A stretch of 56,595 bases of DNA from Clostridia bacterium (GTDB taxonomy: Bacteria; Bacillota; DSM-521; Neomoorellales; SLTJ01): assembly GCA_024653205.1 (NCBI GenBank), contig JANLFO010000017.1:1-56595 (forward strand), given 5' to 3'. Positions 8,863 through 20,397 of this stretch are shown here, piece after piece. Position 1 is the first letter of the stretch. Each line of letters starts with the position of its first letter. The notes under the pieces are model-generated. The model was not told where the DNA came from. It did not search any database and was given only the letters and a program-made list of their open reading frames with translations. The translations under genes were made by a program, and so were the position numbers.

Positions 8863-8902
8863 TACAATGCAGGTGGCGACCGGGAAAGCGAGGAACCGTC
8901 TC

Positions 8903-10324
8903 ATGCATCTGTTTGAGGACAAACCGCGGGAAGAGTGCGGGCTCTTCGGCATTTACGCTCCCGGGCAGGAGGTGGCGCGTCTCACCTTTTTCGGCCTTTT
9001 TGCCCTGCAGCACCGGGGAGAGGAGAGCGCGGGCATTGCCGTGGCCGACGGCCGGGAGGTGAGCCACTACAAGAACCTGGGGCTGGTCACCGAGGTGTTT
9101 AGCGACGAATTGCTGGCCCGCTACCAGGGGCACGCGGCGGTGGGACACGTCCGCTATTCTACCATGGGTTCTTCTACCGTGGTCAACGCCCAGCCCCTGG
9201 TTTTCCGGTACTTTCACGGCACGGTGGCCCTGGCCCACAACGGCAGCCTCACCAATGCCCTGGCGCTGCGGCAGATGCTGGCGGCCACGGGCTCGGTCTT
9301 TCAGTCCACTACCGACAGCGAGATAATTGTCAACCTCCTGGCCCGCTACGGTCAGAGTCCGCTGGAAGAGGCCTTGATGAAGTGCCTCATCGATCTCAAA
9401 GGCGCCTACTCGCTGTTGCTCATGACCGAGGATAAGCTGATCGGCCTCCGGGATCCCCACGGCATCCGTCCCCTGTGCCTGGGAGAGATCGCCGGCGGAT
9501 ACGTCCTGGCCTCGGAGTCCTGCGCCCTGGACACGGTGGGAGCCAGGATGGTGCGGGAGCTGGAGCCGGGAGAAATCGTTATAATCGACCGGGACGGCCT
9601 GCGCAGCATAAAGTCTCTGGCCGCACCCGAGCCGGCGTTTTGCATTTTCGAGTTCGTATATTTTGCCCGGCCGGACAGCGTGCTCTGCGGCCGCACCGTG
9701 AACCTGGTACGCTGGGAGATGGGCCGGCAGCTCGCGCGGGAGGCGGCGGCGGAGGCCGACATAGTCATGCCGGTCCCGGATTCGGGCACCGCCGCCGCCC
9801 TGGGCTACGCCGAGGCCAGCGGCGTCCCCTTTCAGCAGGCCCTGATCAAGAACCGCTACGTGGGCCGGACCTTCATCCAGCCCTCCCAGTCCCTGCGCGA
9901 CCTGGGGGTTAGGCTCAAGCTCAACCCCCTGCCGCAGGTGCTGACCGGCAAGAGCGTGGTCCTGGTGGACGATTCTATCGTGAGAGGCACCACCAGCCGG
10001 GCCATTGTGCAGATGCTTCGGGGAGCAGGGGCCAGGGAAGTCCATTTCCGGGTGAGCTCGCCGCCCGTACTCTATCCCTGCTTCTACGGCATCGACACCT
10101 CCAACCGGGGAGAGTTGATCGCCGCCAGCCACGAGATTGAGGAGATCCGGCGCTACATTGGTGCCGACACCCTCCATTACCTGAGCCTGGAAGGCCTGCT
10201 GGCGGCGGTGGGGGGGCAGCAGGGGTTCTGTACCGCCTGCTTCAGCGGTTCGTATCCCACCCCCATTCCTAACGGCGAGGAAGGCTCGAAGGACATCCTG
10301 GAACGGGCGACGGGTTCGTGGTAA
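8903..10324 (+). CDS. purF: amidophosphoribosyltransferase
   Basis: Makes phosphoribosylamine from PRPP and glutamine, the committed purine step. The N-terminal Ntn-hydrolase nucleophile is the Cys in EECGLFG. ATG at 8903 follows GAGGAAC at a good distance and leaves exactly eleven residues before this Cys, the propeptide length of the Bacillus enzyme; an upstream ATG at 8867 has no ribosome binding site. The PRPP motif VVLVDDSIVRGTTS is present, as are the cysteines LCGRT, YPCFYG and CTACFSG that bind the 4Fe-4S cluster in the Bacillus type. That cluster makes the enzyme oxygen-sensitive, in keeping with an anaerobe. Confidence 0.95.
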   Translation: MHLFEDKPREECGLFGIYAPGQEVARLTFFGLFALQHRGEESAGIAVADGREVSHYKNLGLVTEVFSDELLARYQGHAAVGHVRYSTMGSSTVVNAQPLVFRYFHGTVALAHNGSLTNALALRQMLAATGSVFQSTTDSEIIVNLLARYGQSPLEEALMKCLIDLKGAYSLLLMTEDKLIGLRDPHGIRPLCLGEIAGGYVLASESCALDTVGARMVRELEPGEIVIIDRDGLRSIKSLAAPEPAFCIFEFVYFARPDSVLCGRTVNLVRWEMGRQLAREAAAEADIVMPVPDSGTAAALGYAEASGVPFQQALIKNRYVGRTFIQPSQSLRDLGVRLKLNPLPQVLTGKSVVLVDDSIVRGTTSRAIVQMLRGAGAREVHFRVSSPPVLYPCFYGIDTSNRGELIAASHEIEEIRRYIGADTLHYLSLEGLLAAVGGQQGFCTACFSGSYPTPIPNGEEGSKDILERATGSW

Positions 10325-10360: not shown

Positions 10361-11380
10361 GTGGTGGAGGGCCCGGAAGTTGTGGGGCTGGGGTCCCTTA
10401 ACCTGGACCGGTTTTACCGTGTCTCCGATCCCCGCCTGCTGGTAGAAGCGGGATGGCCGGTGGTGCCGGGCGGAGAAGTTTTCCTGCCCGACGATAAGAT
10501 GCCGGAGCTGGAGGAATTCCTGCGGCGGCACGGCGAGTATCTGGGCGCCAGCGGCGGAGGTTCCGCGGCCAATACCCTGTACGCCCTCGCGCGCCTGGGG
10601 TTTCGCTCTGCCCTCCTGGGGGTGGTGGGCGAGGACGAGACCGGCGACTGCCTGCGGCGTACCCTTGCCCCCGTTGACACGCGGGGAATCAGAACCGTTG
10701 CCGGCCGCAGCGGTACGGCCTTCATCCTGCTGGACGAGGCCGGGGATAGGACCATCCTGGTTTTTCCCCAGGCCAACGCCCGCGTGGCCGAGGCCGGTCT
10801 AGACCGGGAATTGCCGGGCCTGGGGCCGGGCGGGGGTTACCGGCCGCGCTTCCTGCACCTCTCCTCCTTTGTCTGCGCCGAGGCCCGGGCGGTCCAGGAA
10901 CGGATGGTGGCCTCCCTGCCGGCCGGGGTAGAGGTGAGCCTGGACCCCGGAGAAATCTACGCCCGGGAAGGCCCGGCCGCCCTGGAAAGACTGCTCCGGC
11001 GCTCCCGGATAGTCTTTCTCACCCGGGCCGAGCTCGAGCTGCTCTTCCCGAGGGAACGCAGCGCGGTCGCGGCGCGAAGGCTCCTGGACCTGGGCCCGGA
11101 AGTGGTAGTGGTGAAGCGCGGAGCCCGGGGATCGGCAGTTTTTGCCGCCGAGCAGGAAATAGAGGTGCCGGCGGTGCCGGTCAGGGCGCTGGACACCACC
11201 GGTGCCGGGGACGTATACGATGCCGGCTTTCTGGCCGGGCTGCTGCTGGGACTTCCCTTGGAGGCCTGCGGCCGCCTGGCCTCGGCGGCGGCGGCGCAGA
11301 GCATCACCGGCCGGGGGCGGGAGGCCTACCCGGACGTGAGTTTCCTGCGCCGCTGGCTGGCCGGGGAAGGAGTGGGTTAG
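10361..11380 (+). CDS. PfkB-family carbohydrate/nucleoside kinase
   Basis: This 339-residue ribokinase-fold protein should transfer phosphate from ATP to a sugar, nucleoside or similar substrate. The N-terminal GLGSLNLDRFY strand, the GGGSAANTLYALARLG segment near residue 65 and the C-terminal DTTGAGDVYDAGFLAGLL motif with the catalytic Asp are all present. GTG at 10361 follows GGGGGTGGA. It lies 36 bases after purF and 2 bases before the next gene, so it is in the purine operon; adenosine, inosine or ribose kinase activity would fit, but the substrate cannot be read from the sequence. Confidence 0.8.
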   Translation: MVEGPEVVGLGSLNLDRFYRVSDPRLLVEAGWPVVPGGEVFLPDDKMPELEEFLRRHGEYLGASGGGSAANTLYALARLGFRSALLGVVGEDETGDCLRRTLAPVDTRGIRTVAGRSGTAFILLDEAGDRTILVFPQANARVAEAGLDRELPGLGPGGGYRPRFLHLSSFVCAEARAVQERMVASLPAGVEVSLDPGEIYAREGPAALERLLRRSRIVFLTRAELELLFPRERSAVAARRLLDLGPEVVVVKRGARGSAVFAAEQEIEVPAVPVRALDTTGAGDVYDAGFLAGLLLGLPLEACGRLASAAAAQSITGRGREAYPDVSFLRRWLAGEGVG

Positions 11381-11382
11381 GC

Positions 11383-12252
11383 TTGCTGGATCTGGGCTGG
11401 TTTTCCACCGGCCGCGACCGGGCGGCGGCGGACCTTCTGGAGGTGGTGGCCGGCGAGATCGAGTCCGGCCGGCTGGCCTGCCGCCTGCGCTACGTATTCT
11501 GCAACCGGGCGCCGGGGGAAAGCCCGCCTAGCGACGCCTTCCAGGCCCTGGTACACCGCCTGGGACTTCCCCTGCTTACCCTGAGTTCCCGTGCCTTTGC
11601 CCCGGAGTTGTGGGACGAGGGCCGCCGTGAGCCCGAGGCGCGGCGGCGCTGGCGTCTGGCCTACGACCGCGAGGTGGAGCGTCTGATCGCTCCCTTTTCC
11701 TGCCCGGTGGTGGTGCTGGCCGGCTACATGCTGGTCCTGGGGGAGGAGCTGTGCCGGAGTCATCACTTCCTCAACCTCCACCCCGCCATGCCGGGCGGCC
11801 CGGTGGGCACCTGGCAGGAGGTGATCTGGGAGCTTCTCCTGACCCGGGCGGAGGAGGCCGGCGCCATGATGCATCTGGTCACGCCCGAGCTTGACCGGGG
11901 CCCGGCGGTGAGCTACTTCTCCTTCTCCCTCCGCGGCCCCGAGTGGGACGGGCTCTGGCGGGAATGGGAAGCGGACGAGGAGCGTACCCGGGCCTGGCTT
12001 GCCGTCCACGGTCGCGGGGCCACGCCGGGGCCGGAAGAGAGACTCTTCTGGGCGGTGCGGGAGCACCAGACCCGGCGGGAACTGCCCCTGCTGGTCCTCA
12101 CGCTGGATTCCCTTGCCCGGGGAGAAGTGCGGCTGGAGAACGGCCGGGTGCTGGATCGCGGCGGCCGGGAACTCGCGCGGGGACGCTGCCTCAACCGGGA
12201 AGTGGAGGCCTGGCTGGCGCAGAGGGCTCCGACGGCGAGGCCCGAGCCGTAG
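11383..12252 (+). CDS. PurN-like formyltransferase
   Basis: A 289-residue protein with the formyltransferase core. FLNLHPAMPGG near residue 131 carries the Asn and His of the NxHP catalytic motif, and LDRGPAVSY near residue 170 carries the catalytic Asp, each in the order seen in GAR transformylase. It differs from ordinary PurN in the N-terminal GSGxN loop (here WFSTGRDRAA) and in a C-terminal extension of about 80 residues. TTG start after AAGGAGTGGG. As no other purN is present in an otherwise full purine operon, GAR formylation is the most likely job; another formyl acceptor is possible. Confidence 0.65.
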   Translation: MLDLGWFSTGRDRAAADLLEVVAGEIESGRLACRLRYVFCNRAPGESPPSDAFQALVHRLGLPLLTLSSRAFAPELWDEGRREPEARRRWRLAYDREVERLIAPFSCPVVVLAGYMLVLGEELCRSHHFLNLHPAMPGGPVGTWQEVIWELLLTRAEEAGAMMHLVTPELDRGPAVSYFSFSLRGPEWDGLWREWEADEERTRAWLAVHGRGATPGPEERLFWAVREHQTRRELPLLVLTLDSLARGEVRLENGRVLDRGGRELARGRCLNREVEAWLAQRAPTARPEP

Positions 12253-12257
12253 CGCGG

Positions 12258-12276
12258 CCAGTATGAGGGCAAAACC
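12258..12276 (+). repeat. possible degraded remnant of GTAC-hairpin repeat
   Basis: CCAGTATGAGGGCAAAACC matches the 3' end of the hairpin family (CCGGTACGAGGGGGAACC) at most positions. No 5' arm is recognisable because a gene ends directly upstream. It lies in the 102-base gap before the HAD gene. Confidence 0.35.
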
Positions 12277-12354
12277 GGGAGTGGCCCGGGGGTAAACTCA
12301 GGCGGCGGAACCGGGCGGGAAGTTCGCAGTAGGTGAAACCAGGAGGTGAAACCG

Positions 12355-13416
12355 GTGCCTAAATGGTGGCTGGCCACGGATTGCGAAGGCCCCCTTGCCC
12401 TGAACGACAACGCCTTTGAGCTCTGTACCGCCTACCTTCCCGCCGGGGAGCGGATTTTCAGGGTCCTGAGCCGGTACGACGACTACCTGGTAGAGGTGGA
12501 GCGGCGGGCCGGTCACCCCGCGGGTTCCACCCTGCGGTGGGTGGCCCCGTTTCTCAGGGCCTTCGGCCTCACCGAGGCCAGGGCCCGGGACTTTGCCGCC
12601 CGCACCCTGCTCTTCCTGCCCGAGGTGCCGCCCGTCCTCCGGGCGGTCAAGGACTTGCTGCCGGCCTTCGTGATCAGCACCAGCTATCGCCCTTACATAG
12701 AGGCCCTCTGCGACCGAGTCGGGCTTCCCGCCGACTGCACCTTTTCCACCCCCTTCCCTCTGGACGCCCACTCCCTGGCGCCTGGGGAGGCGGAGCGGCT
12801 TGCCGCCCTGGCCGCGGACCTGGCCGGGCTCTCTCCGCCGGAGTGGCCGGAGGGGGCGGCCGGGCCGGAGGACCTCGAGCCGGAGCACCGGGCAACCATC
12901 CGGGTGCTGGCGCGGGCCGTGGCCGAGCTGGAGGGACTTTCCCTTGCGCCCCTGCTGCGGGCGGTTGCGGTGGTGGGCGGGCCGGCCAAGGCCCGGGCAC
13001 TGCGCGAGGCGGCGCAGCGCCTCTCCGCCTTGGTAGGCGAAGCCCTGTACCTGGGAGACAGCATCACCGACGCGGAGGCGCTCTCCCTGGTGCGGACGGC
13101 CGGTGGGGTGGCGGTGGCCTTCAACGGCAACCGTTACGCCCTGGCGGCGGCGGAAATAGCCGTTCTTTCCCCTCACGCCGGCCCCATCCTGGCCCTGGCC
13201 GCCGTGCACGCCCGGGGCGGGCCCCAGGCGGTGCGGGATCTGGTGGCCTCCTGGCCGGAAGCGGCCCGGGATCGAAATTTCGCTCCCGGGTGGAAACCGG
13301 AATACGCCCGGGCGGAAATGCTGTTTGTAGAGGAGCAGGATTTTGAAACCCTGGTAGCCCGCAGCGAAGCCGTGCGCCGCCGGGTGCGGGGCGAGGCCGT
13401 GGGCAGCCTGGGCTGA
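12355..13416 (+). CDS. HAD-superfamily protein related to archaeal EhaR
   Basis: A 353-residue haloacid-dehalogenase-like protein. Motif I is ATDCEGPLALNDNAFEL, motif II is the VISTSYRPYI segment near residue 104, and motif IV is GDSITDAEAL near residue 234. The DCEGPL...NDNAFEL beginning is like the archaeal proteins named energy-converting hydrogenase A subunit R, which are HAD proteins with no proven hydrogenase role. GTG at 12355 has AGGAGG 8 bases upstream; the GTG at 12346 overlaps that site and is rejected. Within the purine operon it could be a phosphatase on a nucleotide or pathway by-product; this is inference. Confidence 0.65.
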   Translation: MPKWWLATDCEGPLALNDNAFELCTAYLPAGERIFRVLSRYDDYLVEVERRAGHPAGSTLRWVAPFLRAFGLTEARARDFAARTLLFLPEVPPVLRAVKDLLPAFVISTSYRPYIEALCDRVGLPADCTFSTPFPLDAHSLAPGEAERLAALAADLAGLSPPEWPEGAAGPEDLEPEHRATIRVLARAVAELEGLSLAPLLRAVAVVGGPAKARALREAAQRLSALVGEALYLGDSITDAEALSLVRTAGGVAVAFNGNRYALAAAEIAVLSPHAGPILALAAVHARGGPQAVRDLVASWPEAARDRNFAPGWKPEYARAEMLFVEEQDFETLVARSEAVRRRVRGEAVGSLG

Positions 13417-13609: not shown

Positions 13610-15139
13610 GTGGCCAGACGAGCTCTGATCAGCGTTTCGGACAAGCGGGGCCTGGACGTTTTCGCCCGGGGATTAAAGGAGCTGGGATTCGAGATCATCT
13701 CCACCGGCGGCACGGCCAGGTCCCTGGAAGGCTGGGGAGTCGCGGTTACGCCGGTAAGCCGGGTCACCGGTTTCCCCGAAATCCTCGAGGGCCGGCTCAA
13801 GACCCTTCATCCCCTGATCCACGGCGGCATTCTGGCCAAACGGGTGCCGGAGCACCTGGAGCAACTCGCGGTCCAGGGCATCGAGCTTATCGACCTGGTG
13901 GTGGTGAACCTCTATCCCTTCCGCGAGACGGTAAGCCGGCCGGGGGTAACCCTGGAGGAGGCCATAGAGAACATCGACATCGGCGGGCCCAGCCTGGTCC
14001 GCGCCGCGGCCAAGAACCACGCCTACGTTACCGTGGTGGTAAACCCGGAGCGCTATCCCCTGGTGCTGGAGCAGTTACGCAGCAAGGGCGAGGTGGATGC
14101 CGAGACCCGTTTCGCGCTGGCGGTGGAGGCCTTTGCCCACACCGCCGCCTACGACGCCGCCATCGCCCAGTACCTCTCCAACGTCCGGGTGGGCTCTCCC
14201 TTCCCGCCCGTGGTGGCCCTGGTGGGCGAGAAGGTGCAGGATCTGCGGTACGGCGAGAACCCCCACCAGCGGGCGGCCTTCTACCGCGAGGTGGGCGCCA
14301 CCGGAGGGCTGGCCTTTGCCCGGCAGCTTCAGGGCAAGGAGCTGTCCTTCAACAACCTGATGGATACCCAGGCCGCCTGGGCCCTGGTGCGCGAGCTTCC
14401 CGCTCCGGCCGCGGTGGTGATCAAACACAACAATCCCTGCGGGGCGGCCGTGGCCGGCTCCCTGAGCGAGGCCTACCGCAAGGCCTTCGAGGCCGATCCC
14501 ACCTCGGCCTTCGGCGGCATCGTGGGGCTGAACGCGCCCGTAGATGAGGCCACGGCCCGGGAACTGGCCAAGATCTTCCTGGAAGTGGTGGTGGCTCCGG
14601 GTTACAGCCCCGAGGCCCTGGAGGTGCTCCGCCAGAAGGAGGCGCTGCGGCTGCTGGAAATCCCGGCCGCGCCCGAAGGCCGGCAGTGGGACGTAAAGGC
14701 CCTGGGCGGAGGCTTCCTGGTACAGGAGGCCGACGTGGTAGACGCCGCTCCGGAAGAGTGGCGGGTGGTAACCAGGCGGGCCCCCACCGAGGCGGAAAAG
14801 CAGGAGCTGGCCTTTGCCTGGAAGGTGGTCAAGCACGTCAAGTCCAACGCCATCGTGGTCACCAAGAACCGGGTCACCCTGGGTGTGGGTGCCGGCCAGA
14901 TGAACCGGGTGGGCGCGGCCAAGATCGCCCTGGAGCAGGCGGGAGAGGCGGCCAGGGGCGCGGTGCTGGGCTCGGACGCCTTCTTCCCCTTCCCGGACAC
15001 GGTGGAAGTGGCGGCCAAGGCGGGAATCACGGCCATCATCCAGCCCGGCGGTTCGGTGCGGGACCAGGAGTCCATCGACGCCTGCGACCGCTACGGCCTG
15101 GCCATGGTTTTCACCGGCAAGCGCCATTTCAAGCACTAA
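13610..15139 (+). CDS. purH: bifunctional AICAR transformylase / IMP cyclohydrolase
   Basis: Performs the last two steps to IMP. The N-terminal methylglyoxal-synthase-like cyclohydrolase domain shows [18 protein letters not shown] and [12 protein letters not shown]. The C-terminal transformylase domain shows KHNNPCGAA near residue 272, [11 protein letters not shown], and ends in TGKRHFKH. The length of 509 residues is usual. GTG at 13610 follows AAGGGGAG. Hairpin copy D ends 56 bases upstream; purM follows 22 bases downstream. Confidence 0.96.
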
Positions 15140-16505: not shown

Positions 16506-17819
16506 ATGAAGGTACTGGTAGTAGGAAGCGGCGGCCGGGAGCACGCCCTGGCCTGGAAACTGGCTCAGAGCCCGGAGGTTACGGAGCTCTTCTGCGCCCC
16601 GGGCAACGCCGGCATCGCCGAGATCGCCCGCTGCGTGCCCCTCAAGGCCGAGGACGTGGAAGGTCTGGCGGCCTTCGTGCGGCAGGAGGCAATCGACTTA
16701 ACCGTGGTGGGCCCGGAGGCACCCCTGGTGGCCGGGCTGGCGGATGCCCTATCGGCGGCCGGCAAGGCGGTATTCGGCCCCACCCGGGCGGCCGCGGCGA
16801 TCGAGGGGAGCAAGGTCTGGGCCAAGCGCCTCATGGCCAGGCACGGCCTGCCCACCGCCCGCTTTGAGGTCTTTTCGGACCTGGCGGCGGCGCGGGGCTA
16901 CCTGTCCGCCACTTCCGGGCCCTGGGTGATCAAGGCCGACGGGCTGGCCGCCGGCAAGGGAGTGGTGGTGGCCGAGGAAAGGGACGAGGCGGAGCGGGCG
17001 CTGGTGTCCCTCATGTCCGAGCGGGTCTTCGGGTCCGCGGGAGAGCGGGTGGTGATCGAGGAAAGGCTCGAGGGCGAGGAGGTAAGCGTGCTGGCCGTAA
17101 CCGACGGCCGGGAGCTGCTGGTACTTCCCTCCGCCCAGGACCACAAGCGCGCCTTCGACGGTGATGCCGGCCCCAACACCGGCGGCATGGGCGCCTACGC
17201 CCCCTGTCCCTTCCTCACCCCCGAGGCGGCCCGTCAGGTAGAAGAGAGAATCCTGCGGCCGCTTCTGGCCGGCCTGGAGGCGGAAGGCATCACCTACCGG
17301 GGCGTTATCTACGCCGGGCTGATGCTCACCTCCCGGGGGCCGCAGGTGCTGGAGTTCAACTGCCGCTTCGGCGACCCCGAGGCCCAGCCCCTGCTGCTGG
17401 GCCTGGAAGGCGATTTCCTGGGGGCGCTTTACGGCGCGGCCCGGGGCCGGCTGGAACGAGTGAACTTGCGCTGGCGCGGAGGCAGCGCCGCCTGCGTGGT
17501 GCTGGCCTCGGAGGGCTATCCCGGGTCGTACCGGACCGGCGAGGAGATCACGCTGCCCTCCGGGTTGCCCCCGGAAACGGTCATCTTTCACGCCGGGACC
17601 GCCCGGCGGGACGGGAAGCTGGTTACCTCGGGCGGACGGGTCATGGGAGTTACCGCCCGGGGGGAGACCCTGCCGGCCGCCCTGGAAAAGTGCTACCGGG
17701 TGGCGGAGGAAGTGCGTTTTTCCGGCAAGTTCTACCGCCGGGACATCGGCCGCCGGGCCCTGGCCCGCAGCGAGGCGTTAAGAACCTCTTGTCATGGGAG
17801 CCAAAAGGCACTAGAATAA
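16506..17819 (+). CDS. purD: phosphoribosylamine-glycine ligase
   Basis: ATP-dependent synthesis of GAR from phosphoribosylamine and glycine. The 437-residue ATP-grasp protein begins MKVLVVGSGGREHALAW, has the glycine-rich GLAAGKGVVVA segment near residue 147, PNTGGMGAYAP near residue 223, and the metal-binding LEFNCRFGDPEAQ near residue 284. ATG at 16506. The 3' end of the gene contains the promoter for the following trp genes (17789-17817), so the purine transcript and the trp transcript overlap here. Confidence 0.95.
   Translation: MKVLVVGSGGREHALAWKLAQSPEVTELFCAPGNAGIAEIARCVPLKAEDVEGLAAFVRQEAIDLTVVGPEAPLVAGLADALSAAGKAVFGPTRAAAAIEGSKVWAKRLMARHGLPTARFEVFSDLAAARGYLSATSGPWVIKADGLAAGKGVVVAEERDEAERALVSLMSERVFGSAGERVVIEERLEGEEVSVLAVTDGRELLVLPSAQDHKRAFDGDAGPNTGGMGAYAPCPFLTPEAARQVEERILRPLLAGLEAEGITYRGVIYAGLMLTSRGPQVLEFNCRFGDPEAQPLLLGLEGDFLGALYGAARGRLERVNLRWRGGSAACVVLASEGYPGSYRTGEEITLPSGLPPETVIFHAGTARRDGKLVTSGGRVMGVTARGETLPAALEKCYRVAEEVRFSGKFYRRDIGRRALARSEALRTSCHGSQKALE
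17789..17817 (+). promoter_or_regulatory. promoter of trpDCF
   Basis: TTGTCA (17789-17794), a 17-base spacer and TAGAAT (17812-17817) make a good vegetative promoter inside the 3' end of purD. Transcription from about 17824 would begin directly before the NAG-triplet leader. Confidence 0.65.
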
Positions 17820-17843: not shown

Positions 17844-17896
17844 CAGGGCAGTCGAGCAGAGACGAGGGGAGTTCGAGCCAGAAGAGCTGAGACGAG
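17844..17896 (+). promoter_or_regulatory. candidate TRAP-binding leader (11 NAG triplets)
   Basis: Eleven triplets occur with 1-3 base spacers: CAG at 17844 and 17849; GAG at 17854, 17859, 17864, 17869 and 17875; CAG at 17879; GAG at 17884, 17889 and 17894. Eight are GAG, the triplet preferred by the trp RNA-binding attenuation protein (TRAP, MtrB), whose ring has eleven subunits. The last triplets overlap the 5' arm of the antiterminator stem. No mtrB is in the window. Confidence 0.75.
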
Positions 17897-17923
17897 GCTG
17901 GTCATTGCCGGCGCTCGGTCTGG
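17878..17923 (+). promoter_or_regulatory. candidate antiterminator stem of trp leader
   Basis: CCAGA (17878-17882) and GAGC (17884-17887) can pair with GCTC (17913-17916) and TCTGG (17919-17923), nine pairs with a small internal loop. This uses bases of the terminator 5' arm and loop, and its own 5' arm contains NAG triplets. Protein bound to the triplets would therefore block it and favour termination, as in the Bacillus trp leader. Confidence 0.6.
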
Positions 17924-17940
17924 GCGCCGGTTTAATTTTT
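17907..17940 (+). terminator. intrinsic terminator / attenuator before trpD
   Basis: CCGGCGC (17908-17914) pairs with GCGCCGG (17924-17930), with an added G.U pair, a 9-base loop, and a following T-rich run TTTAATTTTT (17931-17940). It lies between the trp promoter and the trpD ribosome binding site, so it can act only as an attenuator. Confidence 0.8.
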
Positions 17941-17960
17941 CCGGGAAGGGGAAGCAGGAC

Positions 17961-18992
17961 GTGAAAGAAGTCCTCCGCAAGCTTAGCCAGAGGCAGGAAC
18001 TGAGCCAGGAAGATATCGACGGGGTGGTTGACGGCCTTCTGGAAGACCGTTTCACCTCCGCGCAGGTGGCGGGCTTTCTCATGGGTCTGCTCATGAAGGG
18101 GCCGACCACGGCGGAAATAGCCGCCATTGCCCGGGCCATGCGGCGGGTGTGCGTGGTGATCCGGCCCCGGGTGGAGGGAGAACTGACCGACACCTGCGGG
18201 ACCGGCGGCGGGCTCACCACCTTCAACGTGAGCACGGCCAACGCCCTGCTCTCGGCCGCCGCCGGGGTGAGAATTGCCAAGCACGGCTCGCGATCCATAT
18301 CCGCCTCCTCGGGAAGCGCCGACGTTCTGGAAGCCCTGGGCATACCGGTGGAGCTAGAACCGCACCAGGCGGAACGGCTCATCGAAGACGTGGGCTTTTC
18401 CTTTCTCTACGCTCCCAACTTTCACCCGGTAATGATGAAGGTCTTCGGGCCCGAGAGCGACCTGGGGATCAAGACCGTGTTCTTCACCGTCATCGGCCCT
18501 CTGATCAACCCGGCCGGGGCCAGGTGTCACGTGCTGGGCGTGTACCGGCCGGATCTGGTGGAGCAGGTGGCAGAGGTGGCGCTGGAGGTGGGACTGAGCC
18601 ACGCCATGGTGGTGCACGGCCTGGACGGGGTGGACGAGATTTCGCTGCTGGGCGAAACCCGGGTGGCGGAGGTCAGGAACGGGCGGATAGAGCACTATAC
18701 CGTGTGCCCCGAGGACTTCGGGTTCTCCCGCTGCCACCTGGATGAAGTTCGCGGCGGCCCGCCGGAGTACAACGCCCGGGTTATCCTGGACGTGTTCACC
18801 GGCCGGGATTCCGGTCCCAGGCGGGACATGATACTGCTCAACGCCGCCGCCACCCTGGTGGTGGCGGGCAAGGCGGAATCCCTGGAGAAAGGCGTGGCCC
18901 TGGCGCGCCGGACGCTGGAGTCGGGCGAGGCCCTGGCCAAGCTGGAGGAGATAAGAGCCCGGGCCCAGGAACTGAGGAGAGATGCGGCTTGA
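17961..18992 (+). CDS. trpD: anthranilate phosphoribosyltransferase (variant)
   Basis: A 343-residue glycosyltransferase family 3 protein, expected to join anthranilate and PRPP. It has CGTGG near residue 78, FNVSTANA, KHGSRSISASSGSADVLEAL near residue 105, and the metal pair in GVDEIS. Unusual points: KHGN is KHGS, the Asp after CGTGG is missing, and the HPxMKxVxxxRxxLGxRT stretch reads KVFGPESDLGIKT, so the Arg that binds the anthranilate carboxylate in studied TrpD enzymes aligns with Glu. GTG at 17961 follows GGGAAGGGGAAG; longer reading upstream would run through the attenuator. The Trp-type leader supports a tryptophan link. Confidence 0.75.
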   Translation: MKEVLRKLSQRQELSQEDIDGVVDGLLEDRFTSAQVAGFLMGLLMKGPTTAEIAAIARAMRRVCVVIRPRVEGELTDTCGTGGGLTTFNVSTANALLSAAAGVRIAKHGSRSISASSGSADVLEALGIPVELEPHQAERLIEDVGFSFLYAPNFHPVMMKVFGPESDLGIKTVFFTVIGPLINPAGARCHVLGVYRPDLVEQVAEVALEVGLSHAMVVHGLDGVDEISLLGETRVAEVRNGRIEHYTVCPEDFGFSRCHLDEVRGGPPEYNARVILDVFTGRDSGPRRDMILLNAAATLVVAGKAESLEKGVALARRTLESGEALAKLEEIRARAQELRRDAA

Positions 18993-19747
18993 ACCTGCCC
19001 GACGCCATTCTGCGTACCCGGGGACGGGGAGCGGTGCCGGTAATCGCCGAGGTCAAGCGGCTGATACCCAAGCTGGCCGCCGAGGCCGGGCGGGGCCCGG
19101 ACGGGCGGGACGCCGGCCGTCTTGCGGAATGTTACCGCCGGGGCGGGGCCTGCGGGATCTCCCTGGTCACCGAGCGCCGCCACTTCGGAGGCCGGCCGGA
19201 AGAGGACGTTCCTTTGGTTCTCCGGTCCACGCCCCTGCCGCTCCTGATTAAGGACTTCATCTCCGAAGCCGCGCAGGTAGACTGCTATGCCCGCCTGGTG
19301 ACCTCGGTCGACCCGGCCTGCCTGGGCCGGGTGAGCCTGCTGCTCATAGCCCACCGGGTGGGAGACGATTTGCCGGAACTGCTGGAGCGCGTCCACTCCT
19401 GGGGCATGCTGGCCCTGGTGGAAACCAGGGGGCCGGAAGACCTGCCCCTGATTGCCGGCGCCGAACCGTGGCTGGTGGGGATAAACAACAAGGACATAGA
19501 CCGGTTGGAGGTGGGAGAAGACGGGGTGCGGATCGACAGGGAGATGCTGGCTCCCTACCGGGAACTCCTGCCTCGAAGTTTGATCGTGAGCGAGAGCGGT
19601 CACCGCACTCCGGAGGACGTGCGGTGCTCCCTGAAAGCCGGGGCGGATGCGGTGCTGGCCGGCACCGCCTTCATGCTGGCCGAAGACCCGGCGGAGGCGG
19701 TGGCCGCCTTTGTGACCGCCGGGGAGGTGGCGCCGTGGTCCGGGTGA
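18989..19747 (+). CDS. trpC: indole-3-glycerol-phosphate synthase (variant)
   Basis: A 252-residue TIM-barrel protein. The catalytic positions of the family are visible: VIAEVKR (Glu, Lys), LLIKDFI (Lys), LVETRG (Glu), GINNKD (Asn) and VSESG (Ser). The usual SPSKG loop after VIAEVKR is replaced by LIPKLAAEAG, and the common RKDF is IKDF, so it is a divergent member. TTG at 18989 overlaps the trpD stop by four bases. It overlaps trpF by 13 bases. Ring closure of CdRP to indoleglycerol phosphate is the expected role; the altered loop makes a changed substrate possible. Confidence 0.72.
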   Translation: MNLPDAILRTRGRGAVPVIAEVKRLIPKLAAEAGRGPDGRDAGRLAECYRRGGACGISLVTERRHFGGRPEEDVPLVLRSTPLPLLIKDFISEAAQVDCYARLVTSVDPACLGRVSLLLIAHRVGDDLPELLERVHSWGMLALVETRGPEDLPLIAGAEPWLVGINNKDIDRLEVGEDGVRIDREMLAPYRELLPRSLIVSESGHRTPEDVRCSLKAGADAVLAGTAFMLAEDPAEAVAAFVTAGEVAPWSG

Positions 19748-20397
19748 TGGTGTGCGGCCCGCGCACCGAGGCCGAAATAGACATGCTGGCGGAGGCCGGG
19801 GTAGACGCCGTGGGGCTGATCACCGAGGTGTGGCAGCCCCTGGCCTGTAACCTGAGCCGGGAGGAGGCCCGCCGGCTGGCTGCGCGCCTGCCGCCTTTTG
19901 TGGCCGCGATCCTGGTCCTTACCGAGGAGCGGCCGGACGAGGTATGCCGGCTGGTGGAGCGCGTGCGCCCCGCCGCGGTCCAGCTCCACGGGTTCAATTC
20001 GCCCTCCCAGGTGGCGTTGCTCCGCGAGAGGCTGCCGGTGAAGATCATCAAGACCCTGCACCTCGACGGAGACCGCCTGCTGGGCGACAAGCCTCCGGAG
20101 CAGGCGGCGGCCGAGTACCTGGAGGCCGGTGCGGATGCCCTGCTCCTGGACCGCTTTCACCGGGGAAAGGTCGGCGCCACGGGTTTGGTGGTGGATTTCG
20201 TCCTGGCCCGGCGGCTGCGGCAGGCGGCGCAGCCCCGGCCCCTCATTCTCGCCGGAGGCCTGAACGCCGCCAACGTCGCCCGCGCCGTCCGCACCGTGCG
20301 CCCCTTTGGCGTAGACGTCTTCAGCGGCGTCACCACCGCGGGCCGGCTCAATCCGCGCAAGGTGCGTGCCTTCCTGCAGGCTGCCCGGCGCGCCTGA
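19735..20397 (+). CDS. trpF: phosphoribosylanthranilate isomerase (variant)
   Basis: A 220-residue TIM-barrel protein. The N-terminal VMVCG has the catalytic Cys, LLLDRFHRGKVGATG has the catalytic Asp, and LAGGLNAANV and GVDVFSGV form the C-terminal phosphate site. The usual KSPR loop after the second strand is replaced by TEVWQPLACNLS. GTG at 19735 lies 4 bases after GGGGAGGTGG inside the trpC end. It closes the three-gene trp unit; trpE, trpG, trpB and trpA are not in the window. Confidence 0.72.
   Translation: MVRVMVCGPRTEAEIDMLAEAGVDAVGLITEVWQPLACNLSREEARRLAARLPPFVAAILVLTEERPDEVCRLVERVRPAAVQLHGFNSPSQVALLRERLPVKIIKTLHLDGDRLLGDKPPEQAAAEYLEAGADALLLDRFHRGKVGATGLVVDFVLARRLRQAAQPRPLILAGGLNAANVARAVRTVRPFGVDVFSGVTTAGRLNPRKVRAFLQAARRA

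Follow-up and report, generated by a model that had tools for sequence, protein, structure and literature searches.

The window, by which we mean the whole 56,595-nucleotide stretch of clostridial DNA that was analysed, carries three overlapping genes on its forward strand. The first, trpD' (17961-18992, +), starts with GTG and encodes a variant homologue of anthranilate phosphoribosyltransferase. The second, trpC' (18989-19747, +), has a TTG start and encodes a variant indole-3-glycerol-phosphate synthase (IGPS) homologue, and the third, trpF' (19738-20397, +), again with a GTG start, encodes a variant homologue of phosphoribosylanthranilate isomerase (PRAI). By their open reading frame coordinates trpD' and trpC' overlap by 4 bases, trpC' and trpF' by 10. 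TrpD' scores 371.9 bits against the NCBIfam profile for trpD (TIGR01245, cut-off 199). TrpC' and TrpF' pass the Pfam cut-offs for IGPS (102 bits) and PRAI (86 bits) and lie below all NCBIfam equivalog cut-offs. These matches agree with the families assigned in an initial annotation of the sequence, which also remarked that trpE, trpG, trpB and trpA are missing. They are indeed absent from the trio itself, and in relatives trpBA usually adjoins it. Further upstream in the window is a pur cluster whose segment at 10361-13416 (+), between purF (8867-10324) and purH (13610-15139), encodes a kinase of the PfkB family, a divergent protein resembling formyltransferases (42.8 bits to the PurN model, cut-off 150) and a HAD-like protein for which NCBIfam has no match.

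Upstream of the trio, inside the 3' end of purD, a consensus scan finds a putative sigma-70-like promoter (TTGTCA-17-TAGAAT, 17789-17817, +) agreeing at 10 of 12 positions. Next comes a predicted TRAP-binding array, located by script, of 8 (G/U)AG triplets most of which are 2-3 bases apart (17854-17896, +). It is followed by an intrinsic terminator with an 11-pair stem and then TTAATTTTT (17907-17941, +), identified by a scan and by folding 17895-17945. When the longer leader is folded (17845-17945), an antiterminator forms that competes with this terminator. The array is the only one of its kind in the window and was equalled in none of 200 simulated windows of the same composition. The same genome has a TRAP gene at C10 (PF02081, E 3e-39); a search of the window against Rfam returned no match. 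With the array, the overlapping antiterminator and terminator and the TRAP gene all in place, we regard the leader as a predicted TRAP attenuator. The initial annotation had spoken of a trp-type leader; the tie to tryptophan stands, and in the window it takes the form of an attenuator of this type and not of a leader peptide. The arrangement resembles the TRAP-controlled trp leader of Bacillus subtilis in having a (G/U)AG array ahead of competing antiterminator and terminator, with an mtrB gene in the genome. It differs in having 8 clear triplets instead of 11, and in governing trpD'C'F' only, as the second leader of this type in a genome whose trpE operon has its own. The array at that ordinary trpE operon has 10 triplets (12018-12067, -, of locus L003), so both trp transcription units would be under the control of one TRAP protein.

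Trios that share the features of the one in the window were collected and are called V here. There are 15 of them including the window's own, all from one phylum, and they fall into two subgroups, V1 (n=9, the type found in the window) and V2 (n=6). For comparison we used ordinary homologues: 34 TrpD, 32-33 TrpC and 31-32 TrpF sequences. V1 and V2 together form a single clade in the TrpD tree (100/100), where TrpD' of the window is a member, and in the TrpF tree (100/98). The TrpC tree puts the two subgroups outside the set of ordinary sequences (branch 95/84), and V1 and V2 are each monophyletic for all three proteins. The V genes have dN/dS values of 0.07-0.30; synonymous changes far outnumber nonsynonymous ones, as expected under purifying selection. 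A contig scan with TrpC' returned mostly ordinary TrpC, largely haloarchaeal, and no V members; exact peptide patterns miss 60% relatives.

The residues that separate TrpD' from ordinary TrpD do so without exception. The Asp of the GTGGD motif is missing (GTGG-G, 18210-18211, +), an alignment gap in 15/15 V where all 34 ordinary sequences have Asp. KHGN has become KHGS (residues 107-110), with the codon for Ser110 at 18288-18290 (+); the residue is Ser in every V protein and Asn in 34/34 ordinary ones. At the position of the Arg that holds the anthranilate carboxylate there is Glu165 (18453-18455, +), again Glu in 15/15 V and Arg in 34/34 ordinary. All three changes had been listed in the initial annotation. 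To these we add a V-specific Lys five residues before the Glu, Lys160 in the window (18438-18440, +), which is found in all 15 V and in 0/34 ordinary sequences, where His or Tyr is usual. The DE metal-binding motif is present in 15/15 V. In structures of TrpD from M. tuberculosis the anthranilate carboxylate is held by Arg193 and Asn138 (PMC9835598), and changes at these residues raise the Km for anthranilate (PMC9835598; also PMC5537072). Glu165 aligns with that Arg193 (PMC9835598), the Arg of helix 8.

TrpC' of the window keeps Glu21, Lys23, Lys88, Glu145, Asn166, Glu202 and Ser203, which bears out the claim that its catalytic residues are intact while the SPSKG loop is not: in beta-alpha loop 1 it has IPKLA instead. 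It also has NNK for NNR, with Lys168 encoded at 19490-19492 (+). This Lys is common to 9/9 V1 proteins; the residue is Arg in 6/6 V2 and in 32/32 ordinary sequences. In IGPS of P. aeruginosa the Arg of NNR is Arg196 of loop 6, which contacts the carboxylate (PMC7681013). V2 TrpC retains both NNR and SP, but Asp replaces its first catalytic Glu. An insertion of 3 residues after NN(K/R) is common to the two subgroups. Six V1 TrpC' proteins (L157, L194, L195, L197, L198 and L199) have Gln for the catalytic-site Glu of the (S/A)ES motif; the window protein keeps the Glu.

The picture for TrpF' is similar. The window protein keeps Cys6 and Asp138, and 15/15 V have the Cys that acts as general base and the Asp that acts as general acid. 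The loop is lost, as had been proposed, TEVWQPLACNL standing in place of (S)P(R)R. Cys37 (19846-19848, +) stands where T. maritima TrpF has Arg36; the residue is Cys in 9/9 V1, Trp in 6/6 V2 and Arg in 31/31 ordinary sequences, so Arg36 is replaced throughout V. In ordinary TrpF this Arg forms a pair with Glu184, and simulations suggest that it shields the carboxylate without contacting it directly (PMC9088769). The Glu184 position is Thr199 in the window (20332-20334, +); it is Thr, Asn or Ile in 9/9 V1 and Glu in 32/32 ordinary sequences. V2 retains Glu184, and V1 is without both members of the salt bridge. One TrpF' (genome G131; L158 5149-5997, +) is divided into two well-conserved halves by an in-frame insert of about 60 residues, in which Asn, Asp and His are abundant.

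Chance does not account for these substitutions, given their recurrence in 15 trios, that of the window among them, and their absence from every ordinary homologue used for comparison (34 TrpD and 31-32 TrpF sequences). Those of the window trio are real, and with the residue changes fixed together, one V clade for TrpD and TrpF and monophyletic subgroups in all three trees, the suggestion of a co-evolved subtype has become an observation.

Tryptophan-linked control is predicted across the whole set. The upstream region of the trio in G479 runs off its contig, which leaves 14 V loci that can be examined, and all 14 have a predicted TRAP-type or T-box (UGG) control region. Seven V trios have (G/U)AG arrays upstream. 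In the other lineage a T-box above the Rfam gathering score lies upstream of the V operon (G272, G448, G453, G456, G463 and G465), and in G467 a T-box precedes trpB. Read from the alignment, the specifier position is UGG in these seven T-boxes. Together with the adjacency to trpBA, the TRAP arrays and T-boxes confirm the proposed link to tryptophan. In the stretch that separates the T-box from trpD', six loci (L157, L194, L195, L197, L198 and L199) also have a small open reading frame, which starts about 115-150 bases ahead of that gene. Its ribosome-binding site is strong, it encodes a W-x-W-P-type motif, and it coincides with a GGCCC-loop-GGGCC hairpin. It is possible that this is a second tryptophan sensor, of the leader-peptide type, in tandem with the T-box.

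In the genome of the window (2.46 Mb, 98.8% complete), contig C3 carries an ordinary trpE-G-D-C-F operon and, separate from it, trpBA. The window trio is thus a paralogous second set; the idea that it could be the only trpDCF of its genome is ruled out by this operon. The initial annotation had advised looking for a second trp operon and building trees with the altered residues marked. It would have given up its reading had the proteins fallen among ordinary TrpD, TrpC and TrpF in a genome with no other trpDCF. We find that the trees separate the two sets and that another trpDCF is present, so neither ground for giving it up exists.

Across the V genomes, 11 of 15 have trpBA next to the trio (trpA alone if the contig stops there), in the order D'C'F'BA or BA-D'C'F', and each genome has one full-length TrpA. 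Because a single TrpBA must also serve the ordinary pathway where both sets are present (e.g. G001 and G463), the product of the variant trio is likely indole-3-glycerol phosphate. A chorismate-binding enzyme of the TrpE/PabB family occurs in 9 of the 15 genomes, and all nine have an ordinary trpC. In the other six neither TrpE/PabB nor an ordinary trpC was detected: G272 (96% complete), G456 (94%), G102 (93%), G479 (93%), G467 (90%) and G131 (78%). Chorismate synthase is found in 6/6 of these, as partial matches in G102 and G131. No genome of the 15 combines TrpE with the variant trio alone. Such a distribution is expected of a trio whose substrate is not TrpE's anthranilate, but it is not proof. 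The joint absence of the ordinary E-G-D-C-F genes may reflect one loss event, as they usually form one operon, and the TrpE-negative genomes are drafts. TrpE-negative relatives without V also exist (G077, G464, G466 and G451). G102 has in addition a partial extra TrpF match (32 bits, G102:C152:541-879) that is possibly a remnant of an ordinary gene.

We are confident that the trio is a paralogous set, controlled by tryptophan, that feeds TrpBA. What it feeds on is a harder matter. From the residues, the substrate is most likely an arylamine without an ortho-carboxylate, or else an arylamine not made by TrpE. Since the contacts to the anthranilate carboxylate are replaced together, it would probably have no carboxylate ortho to the amine, or some other ortho group. 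When the non-anthranilate substrate is added to the tryptophan-controlled trio feeding TrpBA, we see the complete statement as evenly poised between right and wrong. The most far-reaching version is that D'C'F' are an entry to tryptophan that bypasses anthranilate, building indole-3-glycerol phosphate from an arylamine without an ortho-carboxylate, and that some bacteria with a shikimate pathway and no anthranilate synthase depend on it. We offer this only tentatively and would sooner bet against it than for it. The initial annotation had left the choice between a distinct tryptophan lineage and a pathway on another arylamine. We also leave both standing, with the TrpE-less genomes leaning to the other arylamine.

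If the non-anthranilate reading is right, TrpD' would join the arylamine to PRPP, TrpF' would then carry out the Amadori rearrangement and TrpC' would close the pyrrole ring to give indole-3-glycerol phosphate. Tryptophan would be finished by the cell's single TrpBA, which in the genome of the window is encoded on C3. If the substrate has no ortho-carboxylate, a proton and not CO2 would leave at ring closure; another ortho group is the alternative. When tryptophan is plentiful, TRAP would bind the array at 17854-17896 and let the terminator at 17907-17931 form, and expression of the trio would fall. Such a route is chemically possible, because TrpD of Acinetobacter accepts aniline and IGPS of P. 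aeruginosa closes the ring of a decarboxylated substrate, 41,000-fold less efficiently than that of its normal one (PMC7681013). In the latter case the activity is weak and incidental to an ordinary enzyme, not a dedicated pathway (PMC7681013).

Several observations count against a non-anthranilate substrate. That 41,000-fold loss (PMC7681013) means that the decarboxylated compound is poorly used by the P. aeruginosa enzyme. For the binding of plain aniline, a conserved Glu in the pocket would be odd. NNR and SP persist in V2 TrpC, and in simulations Arg36 of TrpF acts as a shield more than as a direct contact (PMC9088769). The possible remnant of an ordinary TrpF in G102 points the same way. 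Neither the V operons nor their surroundings yielded a gene that would supply an alternative arylamine.

The strongest competing explanation is that the trio still uses anthranilate in a rebuilt pocket, as a divergent set of isozymes that salvages anthranilate from outside or serves under other conditions, such as low anthranilate or high temperature. In the TrpE-less genomes tryptophan would then come from anthranilate that neighbours release. We consider this a real possibility that falls somewhat short of probable. There is a precedent in Chlamydia caviae, whose trpDCFBA operon reportedly makes tryptophan from anthranilate derived from host kynurenine. That operon is said to lack trpE and trpG, and to add kynureninase and PRPP synthase. 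Many V relatives have the same D-C-F-B-A order without E and G, which fits salvage, as do the score of TrpD' far above its family cut-off, the acid-base residues kept in TrpC', the V2 residues just named and the draft state of the TrpE-less genomes. By eye, we recognised no kynureninase, PRPP synthase or other anthranilate source among the neighbours read in V loci. Salvage has difficulty with the replacement of carboxylate-linked residues in both TrpD and TrpF of all 15 V, and a change from Arg to Glu should repel anthranilate. In nine V genomes, moreover, an ordinary DCF that could use external anthranilate is already present, and V is nonetheless kept there under purifying selection with its own tryptophan-responsive leader.

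It is also conceivable, but in our opinion unlikely, that the trio makes a tryptophan analogue or other indole-type metabolite and is merely tuned to the tryptophan level. A paralogous set with pockets altered in all three enzymes is what such a pathway might look like. The tryptophan-specific control predicted at every locus that could be examined argues otherwise, as do the neighbouring trpBA in 11/15 and the one full-length TrpA per genome, which must also serve ordinary synthesis where both sets are present; no tailoring genes were recognised near V loci. That the trio is a functionless decaying duplicate is scarcely credible despite the strong divergence of TrpC' and TrpF' and their scores below the NCBIfam cut-offs, and it is refuted by the selection values and by conservation over several families, besides the intact and overlapping frames, the kept catalytic residues and the intact attenuator.

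It is important to separate what is new here from what is not. None of the enzyme families is new, nor is TRAP or the T-box. V shares with canonical TrpD, TrpC and TrpF (TIGR01245, PF00218 and PF00697) the fold families and the gene order, the DE metal motif and KHG-R of TrpD, the Lys/Lys/Glu/Asn of IGPS and the Cys and Asp of PRAI. It differs in lacking the GTGGD Asp, in having KHGS, in Glu for the carboxylate Arg, in the loss of the SPSKG loop (V1) and in Cys or Trp for Arg36 of TrpF. It is also a separate clade in a separate operon without E and G. A literature search found no description of the co-altered trio as a clade, of its distribution, of its presence without TrpE or of its role as a second trpDCF; most subscription papers lie outside the coverage of that search, so we cannot be certain of novelty.

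Even if the substrate turns out to be anthranilate, the signature residues of these enzymes (GTGGD, KHGN, the helix-8 Arg and Arg36) are all exchangeable together, which bears on annotation and on how enzyme specificity is understood. To our knowledge, textbooks describe anthranilate as the way into the indole ring for every tryptophan-making organism. A conserved, tryptophan-regulated set of enzymes in which the carboxylate contacts are replaced in several members, and which is kept in genomes without a detectable anthranilate synthase, makes the assumption that anthranilate is universal directly testable.
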